From: Corallococcus macrosporus DSM 14697
Lineage (GTDB): Bacteria; Myxococcota; Myxococcia; Myxococcales; Myxococcaceae
NCBI RefSeq assembly: GCF_002305895.1
Contig: NZ_CP022203.1
Span: 6,730,001 to 6,794,000 of the forward strand
Length of the DNA stretch: 64,000 bases
Reading direction: 5' to 3'
Positions 36,942 to 55,112 of the stretch are shown here, piece after piece; position 1 is the stretch's first letter, and each line of letters starts with the position of its first letter. Below the pieces are notes generated by a model. The model was not told where the DNA came from, made no database searches, and was given only the letters and a program-made list of their open reading frames with translations. A program made the position numbers and the translations under genes.

Positions 36942-38552
36942 TCACCGCCGTGGGGACGCCTCCAGCACCGTCCGGAGCGCCAGCTCGGCCGCGCGCAGCC
37001 GGGCATCCTGAGGGTCCACCCGGCGCGCCTCCACCAGACGCTCCAGGGCCCGCGCGACGTCGCCGCGCGACAGCTCGCAGCGCACGCCGGCCTCCAGCGC
37101 GCCGGTGTTCCACGGCCCGTACACGCGCGCCTCCGCGGCCGCGTGACAGCCTTCCTCCACGCGTGAGGCCTCCAGGAGCGCCCGGGCCAGCTCCACGCGC
37201 GTCTGCACATGGGCCGGTGCCAGCCGCACGGATTCGCTCAGCGGCGCCACCGCCTCCTTGGGAAGGCCCAGGCGCCGGAGCACCGCCCCCAGCGAGCGCA
37301 GCGGCCCCGGAGCGCCCGGCACCAACAGCGCGCGGGCTCGCGCCTCCCGCAGGACGGAGGGCTCGTCGAACCGCAGCTCCGCCACCATCCGGTCCACCAC
37401 GCCGCGATAGGCGGGGTACGCCGCGGGCCAGGTGAACACCAGCCGGTACACCCACTCCCCGCGCGGCACGAAGAGCGCCGTGAGCTGGGTGGCGCCTCCC
37501 ACTCCCTCCAGCTCCGCGGAGAGCCGCTGCGCGCCGCGGCCGCCCACGCGTGCCGCGACCGGGCCCGTCACCTTCAGCGGACGGCCCTCCGGGCCTGGGG
37601 CGCCGAGCACCAGCACCTCCTCCAGGAACTGCCGCGCCTGCACCGAACCGTCCCCCGGCTCGCCCGCCTCGATGGCTTCGGCCGAGAAGGTCGCCCGGCC
37701 ACGCCCCGGCAGCCCGTTGGAGAAGGCGCGCCGGCCCTGTCCGTCCACCTCGCCTCGCCAGTCCCGAGGCAGGCTCACGGAGATGCCGAAGCCATCATCC
37801 CGCTCCGTGCGCCAGACGGAGCGCTCCGCCACCACGGCGCCGGCCAGCGCCACCGCCGCCACCACCATGGCCACCGGGCGCAACCAGCCGGGGTCCGGGC
37901 GCCAGCGCGGCTCCAGGAAGACGCCCGCCAGCAAGCCGGCGAGCAGGCCGGCCAGGTGCCCCGCGTTGTCCACGCCCACCGACGTCCACCCCATCCAGAG
38001 GAAGACGAGCACCGTGGGCACCGCGGCCTCTCCGGACATCCACCGCGCCGGCAGCTTCGCCCGGTGACGCCGCCCCAGGACGAGCAACGCCCCCACGCAG
38101 CCATACACAATCCCGGAGGCCCCCACGCTCACCGCGCCGGAGCTGCCCAGCGAGCCCGCCATGGTGGCCAGGCCCGCCGCCACCAGCAGGGCCGCGTAGT
38201 CCCGGCGCCGGCACAGCCGCTCCAGCCCGGTCCCCGCCGCCAGCAGCACCAGGACATTGAGGCCCAGGTGGAGGAAGTCCCGGTGCAGGAGGTTGGCGGT
38301 GACGAGCCGCCACACCTGCCCCACGTCCACCACCAGGGGCCCCGCCTTCGCGCCCCACCGCAGCAGGGTGTCCAGGCCCACGGGCCCGGCCGCCCGCGCC
38401 GCGCCGTGGATGCCCACCAGCACGGTGGCCAGGATCAAGGTGAGCCAGGGTCCCCCGCCGGGTCGCGCTTCACCGGCCGATTGACCGATGGACAACAGCC
38501 TCGCCTGCCCCTCTTCCTCGGGAGAAAGTCCTGTCTTTTGAGGGGGATACAT
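36942..38552 (-). CDS. Rhomboid intramembrane serine protease with soluble C-terminal extension
   Basis: The 536-residue protein has a rhomboid core in residues 35-230: HxxxN motif HLGLN (His95, Asn99), catalytic Ser146 in VGASGIVYG, and the partner His199 in DNAGHLAGLL, forming the Ser-His dyad for cleavage within the membrane. A seventh helix (VAMVVAAVALAGAVV) leads to a C-terminal soluble region of about 290 residues whose last part has TPR-like helical repeats (LPKEAVAPLSESVRLAP, EARRVDPQDARLRAAEL). The fusion may recruit substrates. The start ATG was set at 38552; a much longer open frame upstream is antisense to the FHA gene and not coding. It is divergent from the FHA gene with 51 bases between. 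Confidence 0.85.
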   Translation of the reverse strand: MYPPQKTGLSPEEEGQARLLSIGQSAGEARPGGGPWLTLILATVLVGIHGAARAAGPVGLDTLLRWGAKAGPLVVDVGQVWRLVTANLLHRDFLHLGLNVLVLLAAGTGLERLCRRRDYAALLVAAGLATMAGSLGSSGAVSVGASGIVYGCVGALLVLGRRHRAKLPARWMSGEAAVPTVLVFLWMGWTSVGVDNAGHLAGLLAGLLAGVFLEPRWRPDPGWLRPVAMVVAAVALAGAVVAERSVWRTERDDGFGISVSLPRDWRGEVDGQGRRAFSNGLPGRGRATFSAEAIEAGEPGDGSVQARQFLEEVLVLGAPGPEGRPLKVTGPVAARVGGRGAQRLSAELEGVGGATQLTALFVPRGEWVYRLVFTWPAAYPAYRGVVDRMVAELRFDEPSVLREARARALLVPGAPGPLRSLGAVLRRLGLPKEAVAPLSESVRLAPAHVQTRVELARALLEASRVEEGCHAAAEARVYGPWNTGALEAGVRCELSRGDVARALERLVEARRVDPQDARLRAAELALRTVLEASPRR

Positions 38553-38555
38553 GGC

Positions 38556-38585
38556 TTGTACAGGGAAAGGCCGTTCTGCTATGAC
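38556..38585 (+). promoter_or_regulatory. Candidate sigma-70 promoter for the FHA gene
   Basis: TTGTAC (38556-38561) and TATGAC (38580-38585) are 18 bases apart, each matching four or five of six consensus positions. Transcription would begin near 38592, only about 12 bases before the GTG start, so the mRNA would be nearly leaderless. The same 51 bases must also serve the divergent rhomboid gene. Confidence 0.45.
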
Positions 38586-38603
38586 TGTACGCGGATCGGA
38601 CCC

Positions 38604-40325
38604 GTGCTGAAGCTCATCATCGAAGACGACGAGGGGCGCAAGACAGTTGTTCCCTTCGTGCGTGACGAGATCACCATTGGCCGTCAGGAGGGAAACACCA
38701 TCCGCCTGACGGAACGGAATGTGTCTCGCCGTCACGCACGATTGGTGCGACTCAATGGCCACGTCGTAGTGGAGGACCTGGGGAGCTATAACGGCACCCG
38801 GATCAACGGCGAGCGAATCGCGGGTCAGTCGCCCCTGAAAGAGGGCGACCTGGTCCAGATTGGCGACTACGACCTCGCGCTCCAAGCCGAGGGCGCGGCC
38901 AACGCCGCCGCAGGCCCCATCACCACCAAGGTGCCCGCCCGCCGGCCGGAGCCCGAACCGGAGGACGACTCCGACGAGGACGCCGACGACGAGCGCGACC
39001 ACACGCCGCCCTCCCAGAGCGCCGCGGACGCCCGCCGGCACTCCACCTCCATCATCCGGTTGGATCAGGTGGAGGCGGAGCGGCCGCGCAAGGTGGTGGA
39101 CGTGCCCGCCGAGGACGCCCCCCGCCTGCTCGTGCTGTCCCCGGACGAGCTCAAGGGCCAGGAGTTCGCGTGCATCCGCACCGAGCTGCGGATCGGCCGC
39201 ACCGACGACAACGACATCACGTTGGATCATCGGTCGCTGTCGCGCACCCACGCCAAGCTGGTCCGTGAGGACAGCGGCGAGTGGCGCGTCATCGACATGC
39301 AGTCCGCCAACGGGATGACGATCAACGGTGAGAACTACGCGCAGGCCACGCTCAGCACCGGCGACATCGTCGAGCTGGGCCACGTGAAGCTGCGCTTCGT
39401 CAACGCGGGTGACGCGGCCGACGACGTGGCGGACGGTGGTGGCTCGCGCTCCAAGCTGGGACTGGTGGCGGGCCTGGCGGCCCTGCTGCTGGGCGGTGGC
39501 GGCGCGGCCGCCTACTACATGAACCAGCAGGGCACCCAGCCGGCGGCGCCCCCCGTCGTCGCCCAGGTGCCCACGCCGGTTCCGGATGACGCGCCTCCGG
39601 CGGCCGTCGGAGCGCAGGCGCCGGCGAACAACCCCCAGGTCGCGGCGACGCCGCCGCCCCAGGCGCCCGAGACACCTCCGCCGCCGAAGGGCCCCTCCAT
39701 GGAGGAGCAGCGCGCGGTCGCCGACAAGGCGATTGCCGCGCGGGACTTCGACGCGGCCGTGGAAGCGCTGGAGGGCATCCAGGACGCCAACGGCAAGCGC
39801 CCCCGCGACGTGGAGACCCGGCTCGACGAGGCCCGGGCCGAGCAGCTCATGAAGCGGCGGCTCGACGACGTGCGCAAGGCGCTGGGCGACGGCAAGCTGC
39901 CGGAGGCCGAGGAGGCCCTCCGGGAGAGCGCCGCCACCAAGGCCTTCGCCAGGGAGTACGCGGCGCTCAAGGTCCAGGTCGCCGAGGCCCAGAAGAAGGC
40001 CGCGCCGCCCGCGGCGGTTCCCACCTCCGGCACGGAGAAGGCGCCGCCGCCCACGCAGTCCGCGGCGGCCAAGGCCCAGGCGGAGGGCTTCGAGCACATC
40101 AAGGGCCTGCGGTACCGGCAGGCCATCGAGCAACTGAACAAGTGCCTCGACCTGGAACCCAACCGCGCCGAGTGCCACCTCTACCTGGGGTCCGCCTACG
40201 CGAACGACAATCAGCCCGAAAAGGGCGCGGTTCACTACAAGCGATTCCTGGAACTGGCGCCCAATCACGCGTACTACGAACGCGTGAAGGGTTTGGTTGA
40301 GAGTTACGAGAATCCCAAGAAGTAG
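38604..40325 (+). CDS. Double FHA-domain membrane protein with TPR C-terminus
   Basis: The 573-residue protein has two FHA domains, which bind phosphothreonine peptides: residues 1-97 (ITIGRQEGN, SRRHARL, SYNGTRING) and about 172-270 (LRIGRTDDND, SRTHAKL, SANGMTING). An acidic linker lies between them. A transmembrane helix (LGLVAGLAALLLGGGGAAAYY) near residues 285-306 is followed by a Pro/Ala-rich stretch and helical repeats ending in a TPR (AIEQLNKCLDLEPNRAECHLYLGSAY). It probably links Ser/Thr-kinase signalling in the cytoplasm to proteins outside the membrane. The GTG start at 38604 begins at the first strand of the FHA fold; a long upstream open frame is antisense to the rhomboid gene. 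Confidence 0.85.
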   Translation: MLKLIIEDDEGRKTVVPFVRDEITIGRQEGNTIRLTERNVSRRHARLVRLNGHVVVEDLGSYNGTRINGERIAGQSPLKEGDLVQIGDYDLALQAEGAANAAAGPITTKVPARRPEPEPEDDSDEDADDERDHTPPSQSAADARRHSTSIIRLDQVEAERPRKVVDVPAEDAPRLLVLSPDELKGQEFACIRTELRIGRTDDNDITLDHRSLSRTHAKLVREDSGEWRVIDMQSANGMTINGENYAQATLSTGDIVELGHVKLRFVNAGDAADDVADGGGSRSKLGLVAGLAALLLGGGGAAAYYMNQQGTQPAAPPVVAQVPTPVPDDAPPAAVGAQAPANNPQVAATPPPQAPETPPPPKGPSMEEQRAVADKAIAARDFDAAVEALEGIQDANGKRPRDVETRLDEARAEQLMKRRLDDVRKALGDGKLPEAEEALRESAATKAFAREYAALKVQVAEAQKKAAPPAAVPTSGTEKAPPPTQSAAAKAQAEGFEHIKGLRYRQAIEQLNKCLDLEPNRAECHLYLGSAYANDNQPEKGAVHYKRFLELAPNHAYYERVKGLVESYENPKK

Positions 40326-43974: not shown

Positions 43975-45192
43975 TTACGGCAGCTCCGTCTGGCCCTGCC
44001 GGCGCAGGAAGGTGGGGATGTCGAACTGGTCCTCGTCCAGCGGCAGCGGCGCGTCCTTCACCACCGCGGTGCGGGCGCTCACGGACTTGCTGCTCTCCAC
44101 GGTGAGGGGCCGCGAGCCGTTGCCCTTCGCGGGCACCAGGCTGGCCACCTCCTCGCGCGCGTTGGCGAGCACGGACGGGGCCGGGCGGGACAGCGGCACC
44201 TGCACCGCCGGCACCACCGTGCGGACCTTGGGCGCGTCGCGGTGCACGAAGCCCGTGGCGATGATGGTGATCTTCACCTCGTCCGAGATGTTCTCGTCGA
44301 TGAGCGAACCGAAGATGATCTCCGCCTCGCTGTCGGCGGCGTCGTGCACCAACGTCAGGGCCTCGTTGACCTCCTGCAGGGTCATGTCGCGGCCACCGGT
44401 GATGTTGATGAGCAGGCCCGTGGCGCCGTCGATGGAGACGTCCTCCAGCAGCGGGCTGGCGATGGCCTGCTGCATGGCAATCAGGGCGCGCTTGTCGCCG
44501 GACGAGTTGCCCGTGCCCATGAGCGCGATGCCCTTGTCGCTCATGATGGTCTTCACGTCCGCGAAGTCCACGTTGATGTAGCCGTGGTACTGGATGAGGT
44601 CGCTGATGCCCTGCACGGCGTTCAGCAGGACCTCGTCCGCGCGCTTGAAGGTCTCCAGCAGCGGCATCGGCTCGTTGGAGAGCGACAGCAGGCGCTGGTT
44701 CGGGATGGTGATGAGCGTGTCCACCGCGGCCTTGAGCTCCACGATGCCCTGCTCGGCCTGCTTGCGGCGCTTGTTGCCCTCGAACAGGAAGGGCTTGGTG
44801 ACGACGCCCACCGTGAGGCAACCCAGGCTCTTGGCGATGTCCGCGATGATGGGCGCGGCGCCCGTGCCGGTGCCGCCGCCCATGCCGGCGGTGACGAACA
44901 CCATGTCGGCGCCCTCGAGCACCGCGGCAATCTGATCCCTCGACTCCAGGGCGGCCTCGCGGCCCATCTCCGGGTTGGCGCCCGCGCCCAGGCCCTTCGT
45001 CAGCGTCTGGCCGAGCTGAAGCCGGGTGGGCGCCTTGCTCGCGGCGAGCGCCTGGACATCGGTGTTGGCGGCGATGAAGTCCACCCGGTCCAGCTTGGAC
45101 AGAATCATCGTATTGACGGCGTTGCAGCCGGCCCCACCCGCCCCGACGACCCGAATCTTGGCGGCCTGCTTGTTCTGATCGAACTGGTCCAT
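43975..45192 (-). CDS. ftsZ: Cell division protein FtsZ
   Basis: The 405-residue protein is the bacterial tubulin homologue that forms the division ring. The GTP-binding motifs are clear: [24 protein letters not shown], the tubulin signature [12 protein letters not shown], the T7 synergy-loop region [15 protein letters not shown] and the later [23 protein letters not shown] disordered linker leads to the conserved C-terminal peptide [13 protein letters not shown], which binds FtsA. The ATG with AGAGGA upstream was chosen. Unlike the usual ftsA-ftsZ adjacency, an 8-kb surface-protein gene and a terminator separate the two here, so ftsZ must have its own promoter in 45193-45435. Confidence 0.97.
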
Positions 45193-45282
45193 GGTGGTCC
45201 TCTCGCCCGGAGTTGCGCGATGCAGCGCGCGTGCTCCCAACCTCCTCAATCATCAGCAAGTCCCGCGCTTTGGCAAGTATTC

Positions 45283-45525: not shown

Positions 45526-48500
45526 TCAGCGCGCCGGGCGCTCCACTTCCACCTTCCCCACGCGGAGGATGGAGAAGCCCACGCGGCGGTTGTTCTCGCG
45601 GCCCTTCGCCGTCTTGTTGGTGTCCACCGGCTTCGTCTCGCCGTAGCCCACCGCCTCCATGCGGCCCTCGGCGATGCCCGCCTTCACCAGGAAGTCGCGC
45701 ACGTTGTTGGCGCGGCGCTGCGACAGGTCCAGGTTCTTCGCGTCGTTGCCCTGGCTGTCCGTGTGGCCCTCGATGCGGACCAACTCCACCTGCGGGTTGG
45801 CGCGCAGCACCGCGGCCACCTGCTTCAGCAGCGGGAACGAGCGGGCCAGGATGACGTCCTTCCCGGTGGCGAAGTAGACCTTCTCCAGGATGACGATGCG
45901 CTCGCCGTCCACGAGCACCTTCACCGTGCCCTTGTCGGGGCAGCCGTCCTCGTCCTTGACGCCGTTGATGGTCTCCGGCTCGTTCGGGCACGTGTCCTCG
46001 GCATCGGGGATGCCGTCCCGGTCATTGTCCGGGTCGGGGCAGCCGTCCTCGTCCTGGAAGCCGTCCTTGTCCTCCGGCGCGTCGGGGCAGCGATCCTCCG
46101 GGTCCATGAGGCCGTCGCCGTCCGTGTCCACCGGCGGCGGGGGCGGCGCCACGTCCGGGCAGCCATCCGTGTCCTCGAAGCCGTTGACCGTCTCCGGCTC
46201 GTTCAGGCACGCGTCCGCCGTGTCGGGGATGCCGTCCGCGTCGTTGTCCGGGTCGGGGCAGCCGTCCGTGTCCTGGAAGCCGTCCTTGTCCTCGGGCTCC
46301 GTCGGGCACGCGTCGTCGATGTCCACGAGGCCGTCGCCGTCCGTGTCCACCGGCGCCGCCGGCTTCTGCTCGCGCGACGGCTCCGGGCTGTAGCTGAAGC
46401 CCGCGAGCAGCCGGAAGCCCGGCGTGCCGTAGCCACGGGTGAGCCCCGGCCCACCGCCCACGTGCGCGGAGAAGCCGCCCAGCGCGCGGTACTTCAGCGC
46501 CGCCAGCAGCTCCAGCGGGCGCTCCTCGGTGTCCTGCTGCTCCAGGTTGACCGCGCCCACCACCGTGGCCGCGAGCGCCAGCGGCACCTCGCGCACGGTG
46601 AAGGGCAGCTCCGCGCCCACGCCGTAGGACACGGCGTTGCCCACGTTCAGGTTCCGAAGCTGCTGCTGCTTCCGGAAGTCCACACCCACGTTGGCGGCCA
46701 GGCGGAACCGCTCGCCGTACTCGGCCACCAGGCGCGGCTGCACGCCCACGCCCGAGCTCCCCAGGAAGTCGGAGCCACCGCCCGTGGGCAGCACCACCGG
46801 CACCGTCAGCGCCAGACCGAAGGCGCCCTCCTCCAGGAGGCGGGCCTTGGGCACCAGGCGCAGGTCACCGATGCCCCCCGAGCCCACGCCCTGGTTGAAG
46901 GACGGGTCCACCATGGGCGCTGCCTGGGAGCGCTGAATCGTCACCGGCAGCAACACCCCGAGCTCGAAGCGGTCGAAGAGGCCCACCGAGCCCATCAGGT
47001 CAATGCCCACCTGGCTGCGGACCAGCGCCGTGATGTAGCGGTCCGTCCGCGGGTCCAGGAAGTTGAGCGGCTTGTCCCCGTAGTTGACGGACACGCCCAC
47101 GTTCCAACCCAGGTGGGAATGCACCTGGGCGCTCTGGACGCCCAGGATGTCCTTGGAGCTGGGGCCCGGCTTGTACTGCTGCACGTCGATGGACTGCGAC
47201 GCGGACAGCGTGGGCACCTGCGCCACCGCCGGCCGCGCCACCAGGGCGAACGTCAGCGCAAACAACGCGGCGGCGGCCACCCGTGCCCCACCGCCCTGCC
47301 CCGCCGAGCGGCGGAAGCGGCCCAGCAGCGGCAGCCCGAGCAGCAGCAGCGCCAGCGGAGCGAAGGTGCCCGCGCCGCTCGTGCTGCACCCACGGCCGGA
47401 GATGACGAAGTCGTCATTGCCGTCCAGCGGGTTGGTGCCCCCGGTGACTTCCTCGCCGTCATTCACGCCGCCATTGTCCGTGTCGGCGTCGTTCGGGTCC
47501 GTCTCACCGTTGTCGAAGGAGCCGTTGTGGTTGGCGTCCTCCGCGCCGTCACGCAGGCCGTCGCCGTCCGTGTCCGGGTCGAGCGGGTGGGTGGGGTTGG
47601 AGCCGCGCACCTCCACGCCGTCCGGCAGGCCGTCGTCATCCGTGTCCGGGTTGTTCGGGTCCGTCTCCGTGTCGTCGACGCGGCCGTCGTGGTTGGCGTC
47701 CTCTTCGCCGTCGCTCAGACCGTCACCGTCCGTGTCCGGGTTCCTCGGGTCGGTGGTGGTGCTCGGGTCCTCGTCCGGGCGGAAGTTGGGCGAGCCGCGG
47801 TCCGTGTCCGCCGGGGCGCTCTCCAGCGTCACGCCCATCTCCGTGCCGTCCAGGATGCCGTCGTTGTCGCTGTCCGGGTCCAGCGCGTCGATGAGGCCGT
47901 CACCATCCGTGTCGATGAGGCCGTCGATGCCGTCCGGCACGCCGTCGTCGTCGCTGTCCGCGTCGTTGGGGTCCAGGCCCTGCGCGGTTTCCGTCGCATC
48001 GTCGATGCCGTCGCCGTCCGAGTCGACGTCATCGGCGGCCACCAGCGGATCCGTCTCGCCCGGGTCCACCCGGCCGTTGCGGTTGGCGTCCTCGATGCCG
48101 TCACGCACGCTGCCGCCGTCCGTGTCCGGGTTGAGCGGGTCCGTCACCGTCGTCGGGTCGGCGTCCGCCACGAAGACCGTCATGTCCGTACCAGTGCCCT
48201 GGGGCTCGGTGAGGCCACGCTCCAGGCCGTCCGGCAGGCCGTCGCCGTCCGTGTCGGCGTTGTTCGGGTCCGTCTCATCCGCGTCGACGATGCCGTCGTG
48301 GTTGGCGTCCTCGTTGCCGTCCAGGAGGCCGTCGTCGTCCGAGTCGTCATCGAGCGGATCCGTCCCCCCGACGTTCACCTCGAGGCCGTCCGGCAGGCCG
48401 TCGCCGTCCGTGTCGGGGTTGTTCGGGTCCGTGCCCAGCGCAATCTCCTCGGCGTCCGACAGGCCGTCGTCGTCCGAGTCGACCGCCACCGACCAGGCGT

Positions 48501-51500
48501 AGGTGGCCGGCGTGTCATCCACGTTGCCCGCCGCATCCACCGCGCGGACGCTCAGCGAGTGGTCCCCCTCCGCCAGGCCCGTGAACGTCACTGGGTCCGT
48601 GCACGCCACGTAGGCCGCGCCATCCAGGCTGCACTCGTACGTCACCGGGGACTCGTCCGAGTCGAAGTCGAACGTCGCGGTGCCCGGCGCGTCCGACAGC
48701 GGCGGGCCGGAGATGATGAGCGTGTCCGGCGCCGTCGTATCCACCGTCCAGGTGTAGCTGGCCGGCGTCGGGTCCACGTTGCCGTCTTCGTCCACCGCGC
48801 GCACCGCCAGGGTGTGCTCGCCGTCGTCCAGGCCCGTGAACGTCACTGGGTCCGTGCACGCCACGTAGGCCGCGCCGTCCAGGCTGCACTCGTACGTCAC
48901 CGGGGACTCGTCCGAGTCGAAGTCGAACGTCGCCGAGTCGCTGTTGGACAGCGCGGGCGGCGTCGAGACGAAGCTCGTCTCCGGCGGCTGCGCGTCCACG
49001 ATGAACGTGTGCGTCACCGGGGTGCTGGTGTTGCCCGCCTCGTCCGTCGCCGTGACGATCACCGTGTGGGGGCCGTCCGCCAGCGTGTCGCTCACGGGGA
49101 GCGACCAGTTGCCGGCACCGTCGGCCTCCACCGTGCCCACCGTGACGCCATCCACCACCACCGTCACCGTGCTGCCCGGCTCCGACGTCCCGGAGTACGT
49201 CACCACCGGCACGTTGAGCACCGCGTTGTTCGCGGGCGTGGTGATGACCACCACCGGCGGCGTCGCATCCACCGTCCAGGTGTGCTCTGCGGGCGTCGCG
49301 TCGACGTTGCCCGCCGCGTCCACCGCGCGCACCAGGAGCGTGTGGTCGCCGTCCGGCAGCGGGCCGAACTGCGCCTGGGCCGGGCACGCCGTGAAGGGCG
49401 CGCCGTTCAGCGAGCACTCGTACGTCACCGGCGACTCGTTGGATGAGAAGACGAAGTCGGCGGTGGCCACGGTCGTCTGCGCCGGCGGGCCGCTGTCAAT
49501 GGCGGTATCCGGCGCCGTCGTATCCACCGTGAAGGTGGAGCTCGTCGGAGCGCTGGTGTTGCCCGCCTCATCCGTGGCCGTGACGGTCACCGTGTACGGG
49601 CCATCCGGCAGCGTCACCGGCGGCGTGAAGGTCCAGTCGCCGCTGGCATCGACCGGGATGGGGCCGTAGGACGTCCCATCGAGCACCAGCGTGACGGACT
49701 CGGCGCCGTCCGCGGTGCCGGTGATCGTGACGACCCCGTCATCCAGCACCGCGCCGTCCGCGGGCGTGGTGATGAGCGGCGCCACCGGCGGCGTCAGGTC
49801 CACCGTCCAGGTGTGCTCGGCGGGCGTAGGGTCCACGTTGCCCGCCGCGTCCACCGCGCGGACGAAGAGCATGTGGTCGCCTTCCGCGAAGCCCTCGAAC
49901 GTCACCGTCTCCGCGCACGGCACGTAGTCCACGCCGTCCAGGCTGCACTCGTAGGTGGAGCCCGGCTCGGAGGCCGCGAACTCGAACGAGGCCGACGTCG
50001 ACGAGGTCGGCGTCGGCGGGCCGCTCACGACGAGCGTGTCGGGCGCCACCGTGTCCACCGTCCACGCGTACTGCGCGGGCGTCGGGTCCACGTTGCCCGC
50101 CGTGTCCACCGCGCGCACCAGGAGCAGGTGGTCCCCATCCGACAGGCCCGTGAACGTCGCAGGGTCCGTGCAGGCCACGTAGAGGCCGCCATCCAGGCTG
50201 CACTCGTAGGCCACGCCGCCATCCGAGCTCAGGTCGAAGGCGGCGGTGGTGTCTCGCGTCAGCAGCGCCGGACCGGACTCGATGAACGTGTCAGGCGCCG
50301 TCAGGTCGACGATGAAGGTGCTCGTCACCGGCCCCGCGGAGTTGCCCGCCGGGTCGACGCTGGTGATGCTCACCGTGTGCGGGCCCTCGTCGAGCGGCTC
50401 CGGCACATCGAAGGTCCAGTTGCCGTCCTCATCGACAGCGATGGGGCCATGCGTGGCGCCGCCCACTTCCAGGTAGATGCTGCTGCCCGGCTCGCCGGTG
50501 CCCGTCAGCGTCGGCGTCGTGGTGGCGACCTCCTCCTGGTCCGCGGGCGAGTCGATGGTCGGCAGCGTCGGGGGCGTGAGGTCCACCGTCCAGGCGTACG
50601 TCGCGGGCGTCGGGTCCACGTTGCCCACCGCGTCCACGGCGCGCACCGCCAGCGTCTGCTCGCCCTCGGGCAGCGCCGTGAACGGCTGCGGATCCGTGCA
50701 GGCCGTGAAGGGCGCACCGTTCAGCGAGCACTCGTACGTCACCGGGCTCTCGTTCGAGCTGAAGTCGAACGTGGCCGTGGTGGCGTTCGTCACCGCCGGC
50801 GGGCCGCTGACGATGGTGGTCTCCGGCGCGGTGGCATCCACCGTCCACGTGCGAACCGCGGGCGTCGGGTCCACGTTGCCCGCCGCATCCACCGCGTACA
50901 CCGCCAGGGTGTGCTCGCCGTCACCCAGCCCCGTGTACGGCTGCGGGTCCGTGCAGGGCACGAACGGCCCACCGTCCAGCGAGCACTCGTACGTCACCGG
51001 GCTCTCGTCCGAGGCAAAGTCGAAGGTCGCGCCGCGGGACGTCGTCGTTCCCGAAGGACCGCTGACAATCGTCGTGTCCGGCGGCGTCGTGTCCACCGTC
51101 CACGAATACGTCGCGGGCGTCGGGTCCATATTGCCCACCGCATCCACCGCGCGGACGCTCAGCGTGTGGCTGCCCTGGCTCAACGCCGTGAACCCCTGCG
51201 GGTCCGTGCAGGCCACGAACGGCGCACCATCCAGCGAGCACTCGTACGTCACCGGGGACTCGTTCGAGCTGAAGTCGAACGTCGCGGTGGTGGCGTTCGT
51301 CACCGCCGGCGGGCCGCTCACGATGGTGGTGTCCGGGGCGGTGGCATCCACCGTCCACGCGTACGTCGCGGGCGACGGGTCCGCATTGCCCGCCGCGTCC
51401 ACCGCGCGCACCGCCAGCGTGTGGTCGCCGTCCGGCAAGGCGGGGAACGTCTGCGGATCCGTGCAGGCCGTGAAGGGCGCACCGTCCAGCGAGCACTGGT

Positions 51501-53550
51501 ACGTGACCGGGCTCTCGTTGGAGCTGAAGTCGAAGGTCGCGCTCGCGGACGTCGACGTCGCCGGAGGGCCACTGACAATCGTCGTATCCGGCGGCGTCGT
51601 GTCCACCGTCCACGAATACGTCGCGGGCGTCGGGTCGATGTTGCCGGCCGCGTCCACCGCGCGCACCTCGAAGGTGTGGGTGCCCTCACTCAGCCCCGTG
51701 TAGGTCCGAGGCGCCGTACAGGCCACGAACGGGCCGCCGTCCAGCGAGCACTGGTACGCCACCGGGCTCTCGTTGGAGGTGAAGTCGAAGGTCGCGCTGC
51801 TGGAGCCCGTCACCGACGGCGGGGCCGCGACGATGGTCGTGTCCGGCGGCGTGGTGTCCGAGGTCACGATGAAGGTGTTGGTGTTGCTCACTCCGGACGA
51901 CACGCCCTGGAGCAGGGCGTAGGCATTGACCGTGTGCGCTCCGACGGGCAGGTCCACGGTCGGCGTGTAGGTGAAGTTGCCCGCGGCGTCCGCCGGGACA
52001 CGGGCCAGCTCGACGCCATCCACGAAGATGACCACCGTGGAGTTCGCCGGAGCCGTGCCGGAGATGGCCGGACGGAAGCCCGTGATGGAGCCGTTGGCCG
52101 GCGTCACGACCGTGGGGGCCGGCAGGCTCGTCGGGAAGGCCCCCGGCAGGAGGGTGACGACGCCCGGGGCGCCAGGGGCGGCGCCATACGTGAGCCCGTC
52201 CGGCGCGTCGGCCGTCGGCTGCGTGCCCGCGGCACCGCCCGTGACGACCGGGGTGCAGCTCACCGTGGCACCCTGAAGCAGCACATGGCCACCACCACCG
52301 CCGCCGCCCGTTCCGTGCTGGTCGTACGTCGTGCTGCCACCCGCGCCACCCCGGGCCGTCAGCGCATTGGCCGAGCACGGCAGCGCTCCGACGACACGCA
52401 GATAGACAGTACCGCCAGCGCCAGCGCCGCCCGCGGCGTCATTGGCAAGGAGGACGGCGTCGCCTCCCGCGAGTCCGTCCGCCGACACACGCCCCGCACC
52501 AGAGAGCGAAGCCGCGCGGATGAACACCACACCACCGCCCGCGCTCCCTCCGCCCGCCGCGTCGTCGTTTCCGTGGCCCGCGCCGCCGCCGCCGCCGAAC
52601 ACCGCGTGGGACACCGCATCGAAGGTCAGCGAGGCGCCACCGAGTCCGCCCTCCGGACGGGACGGCGTGCCCTCTTCTCCCACCCACGTCCGTCCACCGA
52701 TGCCGCCCGCGCCCGCGTTGCTGCCGCCGCCGCCACCCGAGTTGTGACAGACGCCACCACCGCCGGCGTTGGCGACGTTGCCTCGGCCCGTCGTCCCAAC
52801 AGCAATCGGGAAGGCCCCGTTACCAAAGCGGCCAGGCACGAGGCCTTCCCCCTTCTCCGTTCCGCCCGGAAAGACCTGGTCCATCCCGGAGCAGCCGTCT
52901 CCGTCACCGTTCCAGGGAAAGCCACCGCGGAACCCGCGGCCATCCGCGTGGATGCCGCCCACGTTGTTCACCGGCCCCTGGGACAGGAAGGCCACCACAC
53001 CGCCCGTCGCTCCATCCCAGGGACGCGCCACGATGCTGCCCCCGGCGTTCACCGTCACGCTGGCGTACTCGGGCACCCGAATCACCTGCGTCACGTTGGC
53101 CGCGAAGGCCGCCGTGAGCGGCGCCGTGAGGTTGAGCCGCGTCGCCGTCAGCGTCTGGACCCGCGCGAACTCCCAGCGGCCCACCGCGCCCCCCGCCAGG
53201 TCGATGGGCGCCTGGCTCCCAGAGGCGGGCGCTGTCAGGCCCGTGGCCTGGTACACCATCACCAGGTCGTTCACCGAGAAGCCCGCGGTCGAGTCCACAT
53301 CCACGAAGTCCTGCCCCGCCGGCACCGCCGCCGCCACGCGCGCGTAGGTGTTGATGACCGAGTTGGCGACGTTGATGGTCCCCACGCCGTCGGTCCCGTT
53401 CCCCAGGCCGAAGGTGTCCGCCGCGGCCTTCGCCACAGGCCCCAGCAGCGCCGCGCACAGCAGCACCAGGGGTGCGATGGACAAGCCAAGGCGCCCAGGG
53501 AGAGCCCGGTTGAACAGGGGGACGCAAGAGGTCTTTCGAGTCATAGACAT
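45526..53550 (-). CDS. Giant fusion: Ig-like/calcium-repeat MYXO-CTERM adhesin joined to an OmpA-family barrel protein
   Basis: The 2674-residue product has a signal peptide (residues 1-43), a Gly-rich passenger-like region (about 180-478), ten Cys-pair Ig-like repeats of about 80 residues (each with YECSLDG and a second Cys seven residues on) mixed with four other Ig-like repeats (about 479-1686), and many DxDxDG calcium-type repeats (about 1687-2048). Then comes a MYXO-CTERM-like tail: GRGCSTSGAG with Cys2055, a hydrophobic helix and RFRR. It does not end there: a second signal-like helix (VAAAALFALTFALVARPAVAQ), a beta-barrel (about 2111-2395), TSP3 repeats and an OmpA domain (IEGHTDSQGNDAKNLDLSQRR) follow in frame. 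An internal GTG at 47280 could start the OmpA part separately. It resembles an adhesin-OmpA pair, possibly in gliding or cell-cell contact. The first ATG was chosen although no clear ribosome-binding site is seen. Confidence 0.85.
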   Translation of the reverse strand: MSMTRKTSCVPLFNRALPGRLGLSIAPLVLLCAALLGPVAKAAADTFGLGNGTDGVGTINVANSVINTYARVAAAVPAGQDFVDVDSTAGFSVNDLVMVYQATGLTAPASGSQAPIDLAGGAVGRWEFARVQTLTATRLNLTAPLTAAFAANVTQVIRVPEYASVTVNAGGSIVARPWDGATGGVVAFLSQGPVNNVGGIHADGRGFRGGFPWNGDGDGCSGMDQVFPGGTEKGEGLVPGRFGNGAFPIAVGTTGRGNVANAGGGGVCHNSGGGGGSNAGAGGIGGRTWVGEEGTPSRPEGGLGGASLTFDAVSHAVFGGGGGAGHGNDDAAGGGSAGGGVVFIRAASLSGAGRVSADGLAGGDAVLLANDAAGGAGAGGTVYLRVVGALPCSANALTARGGAGGSTTYDQHGTGGGGGGGHVLLQGATVSCTPVVTGGAAGTQPTADAPDGLTYGAAPGAPGVVTLLPGAFPTSLPAPTVVTPANGSITGFRPAISGTAPANSTVVIFVDGVELARVPADAAGNFTYTPTVDLPVGAHTVNAYALLQGVSSGVSNTNTFIVTSDTTPPDTTIVAAPPSVTGSSSATFDFTSNESPVAYQCSLDGGPFVACTAPRTYTGLSEGTHTFEVRAVDAAGNIDPTPATYSWTVDTTPPDTTIVSGPPATSTSASATFDFSSNESPVTYQCSLDGAPFTACTDPQTFPALPDGDHTLAVRAVDAAGNADPSPATYAWTVDATAPDTTIVSGPPAVTNATTATFDFSSNESPVTYECSLDGAPFVACTDPQGFTALSQGSHTLSVRAVDAVGNMDPTPATYSWTVDTTPPDTTIVSGPSGTTTSRGATFDFASDESPVTYECSLDGGPFVPCTDPQPYTGLGDGEHTLAVYAVDAAGNVDPTPAVRTWTVDATAPETTIVSGPPAVTNATTATFDFSSNESPVTYECSLNGAPFTACTDPQPFTALPEGEQTLAVRAVDAVGNVDPTPATYAWTVDLTPPTLPTIDSPADQEEVATTTPTLTGTGEPGSSIYLEVGGATHGPIAVDEDGNWTFDVPEPLDEGPHTVSITSVDPAGNSAGPVTSTFIVDLTAPDTFIESGPALLTRDTTAAFDLSSDGGVAYECSLDGGLYVACTDPATFTGLSDGDHLLLVRAVDTAGNVDPTPAQYAWTVDTVAPDTLVVSGPPTPTSSTSASFEFAASEPGSTYECSLDGVDYVPCAETVTFEGFAEGDHMLFVRAVDAAGNVDPTPAEHTWTVDLTPPVAPLITTPADGAVLDDGVVTITGTADGAESVTLVLDGTSYGPIPVDASGDWTFTPPVTLPDGPYTVTVTATDEAGNTSAPTSSTFTVDTTAPDTAIDSGPPAQTTVATADFVFSSNESPVTYECSLNGAPFTACPAQAQFGPLPDGDHTLLVRAVDAAGNVDATPAEHTWTVDATPPVVVITTPANNAVLNVPVVTYSGTSEPGSTVTVVVDGVTVGTVEADGAGNWSLPVSDTLADGPHTVIVTATDEAGNTSTPVTHTFIVDAQPPETSFVSTPPALSNSDSATFDFDSDESPVTYECSLDGAAYVACTDPVTFTGLDDGEHTLAVRAVDEDGNVDPTPASYTWTVDTTAPDTLIISGPPLSDAPGTATFDFDSDESPVTYECSLDGAAYVACTDPVTFTGLAEGDHSLSVRAVDAAGNVDDTPATYAWSVAVDSDDDGLSDAEEIALGTDPNNPDTDGDGLPDGLEVNVGGTDPLDDDSDDDGLLDGNEDANHDGIVDADETDPNNADTDGDGLPDGLERGLTEPQGTGTDMTVFVADADPTTVTDPLNPDTDGGSVRDGIEDANRNGRVDPGETDPLVAADDVDSDGDGIDDATETAQGLDPNDADSDDDGVPDGIDGLIDTDGDGLIDALDPDSDNDGILDGTEMGVTLESAPADTDRGSPNFRPDEDPSTTTDPRNPDTDGDGLSDGEEDANHDGRVDDTETDPNNPDTDDDGLPDGVEVRGSNPTHPLDPDTDGDGLRDGAEDANHNGSFDNGETDPNDADTDNGGVNDGEEVTGGTNPLDGNDDFVISGRGCSTSGAGTFAPLALLLLGLPLLGRFRRSAGQGGGARVAAAALFALTFALVARPAVAQVPTLSASQSIDVQQYKPGPSSKDILGVQSAQVHSHLGWNVGVSVNYGDKPLNFLDPRTDRYITALVRSQVGIDLMGSVGLFDRFELGVLLPVTIQRSQAAPMVDPSFNQGVGSGGIGDLRLVPKARLLEEGAFGLALTVPVVLPTGGGSDFLGSSGVGVQPRLVAEYGERFRLAANVGVDFRKQQQLRNLNVGNAVSYGVGAELPFTVREVPLALAATVVGAVNLEQQDTEERPLELLAALKYRALGGFSAHVGGGPGLTRGYGTPGFRLLAGFSYSPEPSREQKPAAPVDTDGDGLVDIDDACPTEPEDKDGFQDTDGCPDPDNDADGIPDTADACLNEPETVNGFEDTDGCPDVAPPPPPVDTDGDGLMDPEDRCPDAPEDKDGFQDEDGCPDPDNDRDGIPDAEDTCPNEPETINGVKDEDGCPDKGTVKVLVDGERIVILEKVYFATGKDVILARSFPLLKQVAAVLRANPQVELVRIEGHTDSQGNDAKNLDLSQRRANNVRDFLVKAGIAEGRMEAVGYGETKPVDTNKTAKGRENNRRVGFSILRVGKVEVERPAR
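47305..47397 (-). other. Internal MYXO-CTERM-like sorting motif
   Basis: Within the giant gene, translated residues around 2052-2082 read GRGCSTSGAG, then a hydrophobic run (FAPLALLLLGLPLLG) and RFRRS. This is the known tripartite layout of MYXO-CTERM signals (invariant Cys, membrane helix, Arg cluster), which are normally at the extreme C-terminus of surface proteins. Here about 590 residues follow. Confidence 0.7.
48470..52130 (-). repeat. Tandem coding repeats for Ig-like domains in the giant gene
   Basis: About fourteen Ig-like modules are encoded in tandem. Copies are very similar at DNA level: 48573-48678 and 48828-48933 match at 105 of 106 bases with a 255-bp period, and the blocks near 50730-50820 and 51240-51330 are also close. 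Such recent duplications imply copy-number change by recombination. Confidence 0.85.
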
Positions 53551-53879: not shown

Positions 53880-55112
53880 TCAGAAGATTTCCTCGAGCCA
53901 CTCGCGCATGCGGCCCTTCACCTTCTTGTACACGTTCTCCTCGCGGATGCGGAACATGCGCCGGTCCAGGTGGCGGGCGCCGTAGACGACCAAGCCCACG
54001 CCGGTGGCGTACATGGGGCTCTTCACCACATCCACCAGACCGCCAATGCCGCGCGGCATGCCGCGGCGGACGGGCAGGCCCAGCACTTCCTCCGCCAGCT
54101 CCGGCATGCCGGCCAGCAGCGTGGAGCCACCCGTAATCACCACGCCCGAGGCCAGCAGGTCCTCGTAGCCGCACTTCTGGATTTCGCGGTGCACGAGCTG
54201 GAAGATCTCCTCCACGCGCGGCTCCAGGATTTCGCAGAGAATCTGCCGCCCGAGCACGCGGGGCTGACGGCCCCCGACGCTGGGCACTTCAATGGTGTCG
54301 TCCTTGTTGATGAGCGACGACAGCGCGCAGCCGTACTTCTGCTTGATGCGCTCGGCCTCGTGCGCGGGGGTGCGCAGGCCAATGGCGATGTCGCTGGTGA
54401 GGTTGTTGCCGCCCAGCGCAATCACCGCCGTGTGGACGATGGAGCCGCCGGAGAAGATGGCGATGTCCGTGGTGCCGCCGCCGATGTCGACGAGGCACAC
54501 GCCCAGCTCCTTCTCGTCCTCACCCAGCACCGCCTCCGCGCTGGCCAGCGGCTGGAGCACGATGTCGGAGACATTGAGCCCGGTGCGGTTGGCGCACTTG
54601 ACGATGTTCTGCGCGCTGGACACCGCGCCGGTGACGATGTGGACCTTGGCCTCCAGGCGGACACCGGCCATGCCCAGGGGCTCCTTGATGCCGCCCTGGT
54701 CGTCGATGATGAACTCCTGCGGGAGGACGTGAATCACCTCCCGGTCCAGCGGAATCGCCACGGCCTTGGCCGCGTCAATGACGCGGGCGATGTCCGCCTC
54801 GCGGACCTCCTTGTCCTTGACGGCGACGATGCCCTGGGAATTGAAGCCCTTGATGTGGCCCCCGGCGATGCCCGTGTAGACGTGGGAGATCTCCGCCCCC
54901 GCCATGAGCTCCGCTTCCTCCACCGCGCGGCGGATGGAAGAGACGGTCGCCTCGATGTTCACCACCACGCCCTTGCGCAGACCCTTCGACGGATGCGTAC
55001 CGATGCCGATGATGTCGATGCCGCTGTCGGTCAGCTCTCCGACGATGGCGCAGATCTTCGTCGTGCCGATGTCGAGGCCGACGATGATCTCCCCCGACTT
55101 CTGCTTCGCCAT
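53880..55112 (-). CDS. ftsA: Cell division protein FtsA
   Basis: The 410-residue protein is the actin-like membrane tether of FtsZ. Actin-family nucleotide motifs are visible: VGLDIGTTKICAIVGE (phosphate 1), GVCLVDIGGGTTDIAIF (phosphate 2) and SGVVITGGSTLLAGM (adenosine). The 1C-domain region with AGGHIKGFNSQGI is present, and the C-terminus ends in a basic amphipathic helix (VYKKVKGRMREWLEEIF), the membrane-binding element. GGGAGGG stands before the ATG. It is 46 bases after ftsQ. It is not adjacent to ftsZ, unlike the usual order. Confidence 0.96.
   Translation of the reverse strand: MAKQKSGEIIVGLDIGTTKICAIVGELTDSGIDIIGIGTHPSKGLRKGVVVNIEATVSSIRRAVEEAELMAGAEISHVYTGIAGGHIKGFNSQGIVAVKDKEVREADIARVIDAAKAVAIPLDREVIHVLPQEFIIDDQGGIKEPLGMAGVRLEAKVHIVTGAVSSAQNIVKCANRTGLNVSDIVLQPLASAEAVLGEDEKELGVCLVDIGGGTTDIAIFSGGSIVHTAVIALGGNNLTSDIAIGLRTPAHEAERIKQKYGCALSSLINKDDTIEVPSVGGRQPRVLGRQILCEILEPRVEEIFQLVHREIQKCGYEDLLASGVVITGGSTLLAGMPELAEEVLGLPVRRGMPRGIGGLVDVVKSPMYATGVGLVVYGARHLDRRMFRIREENVYKKVKGRMREWLEEIF

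Follow-up and report, generated by a model that had tools for sequence, protein, structure and literature searches.

A conserved internal MYXO-CTERM signal joins an adhesin to a TraB-like OmpA protein in a putative myxobacterial polyprotein

The nearest described counterpart of the gene treated here is MXAN_5598 of Myxococcus xanthus, a large adhesin with an internal MYXO-CTERM followed by a barrel and an OmpA domain, which is encoded beside ftsA/ftsZ and has been likened to TraA/TraB (Guo, Haft, and Wall 2025, PMC11980579). According to the same paper, internal MYXO-CTERM motifs are rare, the N-terminal part of MXAN_5598 is proposed to be processed and anchored, MYXO-CTERM proteins use type II secretion, and the MYXO-CTERM of TraA is cleaved by MrtX. 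MXAN_5598 is the direct ortholog of the Corallococcus macrosporus gene, and the core case is already published. Since it was reported there with the same architecture and the same interpretation, the claim of an earlier, sequence-only reading of this DNA that such a system is undescribed does not hold. The portion of that paper drawn on here describes neither a second signal peptide, nor release of the C-terminal half, nor conservation across the family. New in the present analysis are the breadth of the fused design, the second signal peptide, the evidence against an internal translation start, and the split and solo relatives.

Two more distant cases can be set beside it. Going by the title of a 2017 paper by Abdul Halim that PMC11980579 cites, a Haloferax ArtA substrate reportedly carries a tripartite sorting signal away from its C terminus. 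This is likewise a "C-terminal" sorting signal inside a protein, but the enzyme is an archaeosortase, the host is an archaeon, and the proteins are not homologous. FbcH of Bradyrhizobium is the precursor of cytochrome b and cytochrome c1, a bacterial polyprotein in which signal peptidase acts on an internal signal peptide; it differs in belonging to a respiratory complex, in being cut once, and in having no sorting tag. A literature search on bacterial polyproteins with internal signal peptides such as FbcH found nothing useful.

The window, meaning the whole stretch analyzed, comprises 64,000 nucleotides of the C. macrosporus genome. Sequence and translation show a single open frame of 2674 codons on the minus strand at 45526-53550, within a cell-division cluster that contains ftsQ, murB, murC, murG, and ftsW in addition to ftsA and ftsZ. 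The sequence-only reading had described one 2674-residue frame with an internal MYXO-CTERM-like motif, a second signal-like helix, a barrel, TSP3 repeats, and an OmpA domain, all of which the sequence and the profile matches bear out. The features are as follows, with arrows marking predicted cut sites.

53880..55112, minus strand: ftsA, directly upstream of the fused gene (TIGR01174, 488 bits)
45526..53550, minus strand: whole fused gene, 2674 aa, ortholog of M. xanthus MXAN_5598 (sequence; ftsA/ftsZ position; PMC11980579)
53425..53550, minus strand: N-terminal Sec signal peptide, residues 1-42, AKA↓A (sequence inspection)
52225..53463, minus strand: AgmC_N domain, residues 30-442 (NF047640)
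48481..51843, minus strand: bacterial Ig-like/OmpL47-type repeats, residues ~570-1690 (PF19077 in 11 stretches, NF047446, NF033510)
47416..48480, minus strand: first TSP3 calcium-repeat stalk, residues ~1691-2045 (PF18884)
47308..47397, minus strand: internal MYXO-CTERM signal, residues 2052-2081, with Cys2055 at 47386-47388 (TIGR03901; motif conservation; dN/dS)
47221..47307, minus strand: Arg-containing linker and second signal peptide, residues 2082-2110, cut A-V-A↓Q (A/S/V/T-x-A↓Q in fused rows; N-terminal in split and solo relatives)
46390..47106, minus strand: outer-membrane beta-barrel, ~12 strands, residues ~2149-2387 (AlphaFold2 model; FapF 5o65 alignment)
45931..46350, minus strand: second TSP3-type acidic repeat linker, residues ~2401-2540 (sequence inspection)
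45586..45876, minus strand: OmpA C-terminal domain (peptidoglycan binding), residues 2559-2655 (PF00691, 79.4 bits)
43975..45249, minus strand: ftsZ, directly downstream of the fused gene (PF00091, PF12327)

The AgmC_N model (NF047640) scores 399 bits on the fused protein, above its cut-off of 275, and has 5 matches in the C. macrosporus genome, so the name AgmC does not identify an agmC gene. Identity of the protein with AgmC was rejected on this multi-copy distribution, and we found no paper on AgmC. AgmC_N, though an "equivalog domain", is above cut-off in many paralogs per genome, and to judge from these sequences AgmC is probably used too widely as a product name.

The junction between the 2 halves reads G2052-R-G-C2055-STSGAG, a hydrophobic helix, R2078-F-R-R2081, a linker of ~10 residues, and a second hydrophobic stretch that runs to A2108-V-A2110↓Q2111. 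The first part has the layout of a MYXO-CTERM signal, with a signature motif around an invariant Cys (GRGCSTSGAG), a hydrophobic helix, and an Arg-rich RFRR. Such a signal is expected at the C terminus, whereas here 592 residues continue past residue 2082, and the signal is internal in 74 loci. Its TIGR03901 score of 15.3 bits is below the curated cut-off of 20, but the truly terminal signal of the nearest paralog in the same genome, at a split locus, scores 15.4, so the low value is not due to the internal location. A gene for the myxosortase MrtX is present in the same genome (L126:1465-2184, minus strand; NF040593, 455 bits against a cut-off of 180). Codon alignments in 4 lineages give a dN/dS of 0.05-0.18 for the 39 codons around the Cys, which are under strong purifying selection, as against 0.38-0.87 for the linker and signal peptide and 0.16-0.44 for the barrel. 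This contrast is what a recognized motif would give if the signal peptide after it needed hydrophobicity only.

Orthologs were sought in 96 genomes within the scope of the family Myxococcaceae and were found in 45, of which 27 belong to the same genus and 2 and 16 to two other genera. The sequence-only reading had allowed that homologs might always be split by a stop after RFRR; all 45 are fused, as open frames of 1654-3517 residues with no internal stop, and total length changes with repeat number. In each of the 30 junctions checked, the Cys motif is followed by a helix, an Arg tail, a second helix, and A-x-A-Q, always in this order. Because the frame is kept open in 45 of 45 genomes and the junction is the same in 30 of 30, the internal signal is not a product of chance. 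The order ftsA-fusion-ftsZ recurs in named loci of Myxococcus, Corallococcus, Pyxidicoccus, and Citreicoccus, so that several genera have retained an adhesin gene between these two division genes.

One record titled Comamonas sp. KCTC 72670 (L046, BNCN01000001.1) carries the present Myxococcus locus, with ftsA 100% and the barrel 92% identical. On these identities, the record probably bears a wrong label or includes contaminating DNA.

The fused design extends beyond the orthologs. Relatives were found via the barrel, and 60 further loci were taken with a preference for long open frames, so the counts of fused loci are not a census. Within the family, 74 distinct fused loci were read, comprising the 30 orthologs, a second fused locus of the C. 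macrosporus genome, and further loci; another 3 (L175, L176, and L177) come from two further families of the same order. All of these loci have the Cys motif and an x-A↓Q site at the second helix. The Cys motif is present in 96 of 96 fused rows (duplicates included), rows having been classed as fused by a Cys-plus-helix rule, and the only locus with a long upstream open frame but no Cys motif (L107) shows no adhesin in that frame. The second helix likewise closes with A/S/V/T-x-A↓Q in all 96 rows (duplicates included), with A at -3 in 91. In L175 and L177, both from genomes of another family, the adhesin half consists of Cys-rich repeats that recall TraA and is followed by an internal MYXO-CTERM and a barrel half; judged by these repeats, they are possible TraA-TraB-like fusions.

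With a probability of about 0.75, we infer that the locus encodes a polyprotein from which myxosortase and signal peptidase I would release a surface adhesin bearing a lipid and a partner that sits in the outer membrane and binds the wall, both cleavages, the lipidation, the secretion route, and any later contact of the halves being predictions. Of the 2 possibilities raised by the sequence-only reading, a polyprotein or a stop lost between neighboring genes, it is the former that is supported. The N-terminal signal peptide would direct the chain into the Sec pathway, transfer would stop at the MYXO-CTERM helix with its Arg tail inside, and the second helix would restart it. The 2 helices would then form an inner-membrane hairpin with a short Arg-rich cytoplasmic loop and both flanking domains periplasmic. 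A cut by MrtX at Cys2055 after lipidation would free the adhesin, with its AgmC_N domain, Ig-like repeats, and TSP3 stalk, to reach the cell surface by type II secretion, and myxosortase would have to accept a signal whose Arg tail runs into another helix. A cut by signal peptidase I after Ala2110 would free the TraB-like barrel-OmpA half, which BAM would insert in the outer membrane and which would bind peptidoglycan, while a small hairpin would be left behind by the 2 cuts. As both products would come from one message, adhesin and partner would be made in equal amounts, in what would be, in the term of the sequence-only reading, a self-paired surface system.

The chain might instead stay whole, with the 2 helices serving as an ordinary membrane hairpin that tethers adhesin and OmpA domain in one uncut protein. 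MXAN_5598 was detected by mass spectrometry in M. xanthus vesicles and is entered in the material cited from that study as one "OmpA domain protein" (PMC4158809), and this single entry counts in favor of an uncut protein. Plain membrane helices, however, need neither the Cys motif nor A/S/V/T-x-A↓Q, and a hairpin left in the inner membrane would hold both the barrel and the surface adhesin back from the outer membrane. A paralog at 5.21 Mb in the same genome, moreover, exists as 2 genes. Its adhesin gene ends in ...GHGCSTSGAGTLAPLALWLLALPMLRRLRRSAPAA and a stop, and ~60 bases after the stop begins a separate frame, with a signal peptide that terminates in TASAQ directly ahead of the barrel; the stop thus falls exactly between the 2 proposed signals. 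In Corallococcus this same locus is fused in some species and reduced to the OmpA half in others, and solo OmpA halves start with the second-helix segment as their N-terminal signal peptide. Split and solo forms together indicate that each half can exist alone and that the second helix then serves as an N-terminal signal peptide. An uncut protein would need another reason for 2 invariant cut motifs and a two-gene paralog, and we consider it unlikely.

In the Corallococcus-like genomes of L071-L078, the OmpA half occurs without an adhesin, and several of these loci retain degenerate traces of a MYXO-CTERM tail immediately ahead of the signal peptide, which looks as though a deletion had removed the adhesin part.

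The frame might also represent 2 in-frame genes without a stop between them, the OmpA half being made by reinitiation at an internal start such as the GTG at 47280 to which the sequence-only reading pointed. That codon exists (V2091) and is kept in close Myxococcus orthologs, but it reads GTC or GTA or is missing in other orthologs. Furthermore, 23 of the 74 fused loci have no ATG, GTG, or TTG from the start of the Arg cluster to 14 codons before the cut site. The distance from the Cys to the second cut site varies from 38 to 58 residues, and at least 34 changes in spacer length are required on a tree of 93 barrels (its root unsure because the branches are long), every one of them in frame. 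If the frame were irrelevant, each such change would keep it about 1 time in 3, and independent genes would not require all spacer indels to be in frame. An internal start is therefore quite unlikely.

The predicted structure of the C-terminal half bears on its function. An AlphaFold2 model of residues 2111-2674 built from 63 sequences has a mean pLDDT of 77 and a pTM of 0.51, with high confidence in the barrel and lower confidence in the repeats. The barrel model aligns with FapF (5o65) at Z 22.3 and an rmsd of 3.2 over 228 residues, with a COG4313 channel at Z 21.3, and with autotransporter barrels at Z 17-19, while the model of the C-terminal domain aligns with OmpA/Pal domains. The modeled fold supports an outer-membrane barrel with a wall-binding domain and does not imply transport. 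FapF and the COG4313 outer-membrane channels share the same 12-strand barrel fold (Z 21-22), but at 14-17% identity to the barrel here the likeness is one of fold only and carries no implication for function.

The alignments with FapF (Z 22), which transports polypeptides, and with autotransporter barrels nevertheless speak for a reading in which the barrel would export or display its own adhesin, in an autotransporter-like or FapF-like manner, so that the fusion would serve secretion and not co-production alone. A common 12-strand fold proves no function, type II secretion is on record for MYXO-CTERM proteins in the cited part of PMC11980579, and solo OmpA halves exist without an adhesin. Export of the adhesin by its own barrel is thus very unlikely.

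An assembly error or a recent, pseudogene-like fusion has next to no probability: the split paralog proves that a stop can exist, but the lost stop that the sequence-only reading allowed for as such an error is contradicted by 45 fused orthologs of 45, which rule out a frame error or misassembly, by many paralogous fused clades and fused loci in many genera, by in-frame spacer indels, by purifying selection, and by a complete one-contig genome.

The polyprotein reading leaves the relationship with TraAB to be placed. The comparison with TraA and TraB made in the sequence-only reading was apt in that the C-terminal half matches the TraB model (NF033763) and has the layout of a barrel and then an OmpA domain adjoining a MYXO-CTERM adhesin. 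The score of 302 bits is, however, below the cut-off of 700, so this half is TraB-like, and its identification as TraB was rejected. Both systems encode a MYXO-CTERM surface protein together with a barrel-OmpA partner, the TraA and TraB ORFs overlapping. TraAB differs in occupying a separate locus in the C. macrosporus genome (L041, with TraA at L041:1704-3923), and the Cys-rich repeats of TraA have no place in the present adhesin, which carries AgmC_N together with Ig-like and TSP3 repeats instead.

The genome has 17 OmpA-domain genes, 6 of them fused to or beside a MYXO-CTERM-type adhesin. The motif scan for MYXO-CTERM neighbors of OmpA genes missed TraA, L128, and L139, which were added by eye. 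Fused genes are found here and at 7.465 Mb, the adhesin gene precedes the OmpA gene in 2 loci, at 5.21 and 8.19 Mb, the latter being TraAB, and the order is reversed at 6.21 and 5.91 Mb. The second fusion (L040:4173-9860, ~7.465 Mb) has an unrelated adhesin, whose repeats look kelch-like/HYR-like by eye. It also has an internal Cys motif, an RRRSR tail, an ANALA↓Q signal peptide site, a barrel, and an OmpA domain of its own.

On balance, we favor the view that these loci represent a wide class of bacterial surface polyproteins, in which pairs of a myxobacterial adhesin and an outer-membrane wall anchor would be made as one chain and in equal amounts. This chain would receive 2 cuts in the inner membrane, with myxosortase acting on an internal lipidation Cys and signal peptidase I on an internal signal peptide. 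Several such loci would occur per genome, and they could revert to split or solo genes. If so, the internal MYXO-CTERM would be a conserved design and not a rarity, the pieces of one polyprotein would reach different places in the envelope, and the fused locus would offer a direct test bed for the action of myxosortase on internal sites. It would also suggest that TraAB belongs to a larger set of adhesin/OmpA pairs.

Two minor observations concern other genes. L139:3175-10869 and L128:7278-13510 are reversed pairs, an OmpA gene followed by a large adhesin with a MYXO-CTERM-like end, and the L139 adhesin is the best AgmC_N match in the genome. Within the window, a 1108-residue minus-strand frame at 36942-40268, which carries a Rhomboid domain (PF01694), overlaps a plus-strand FHA-domain frame at 37209-40325.
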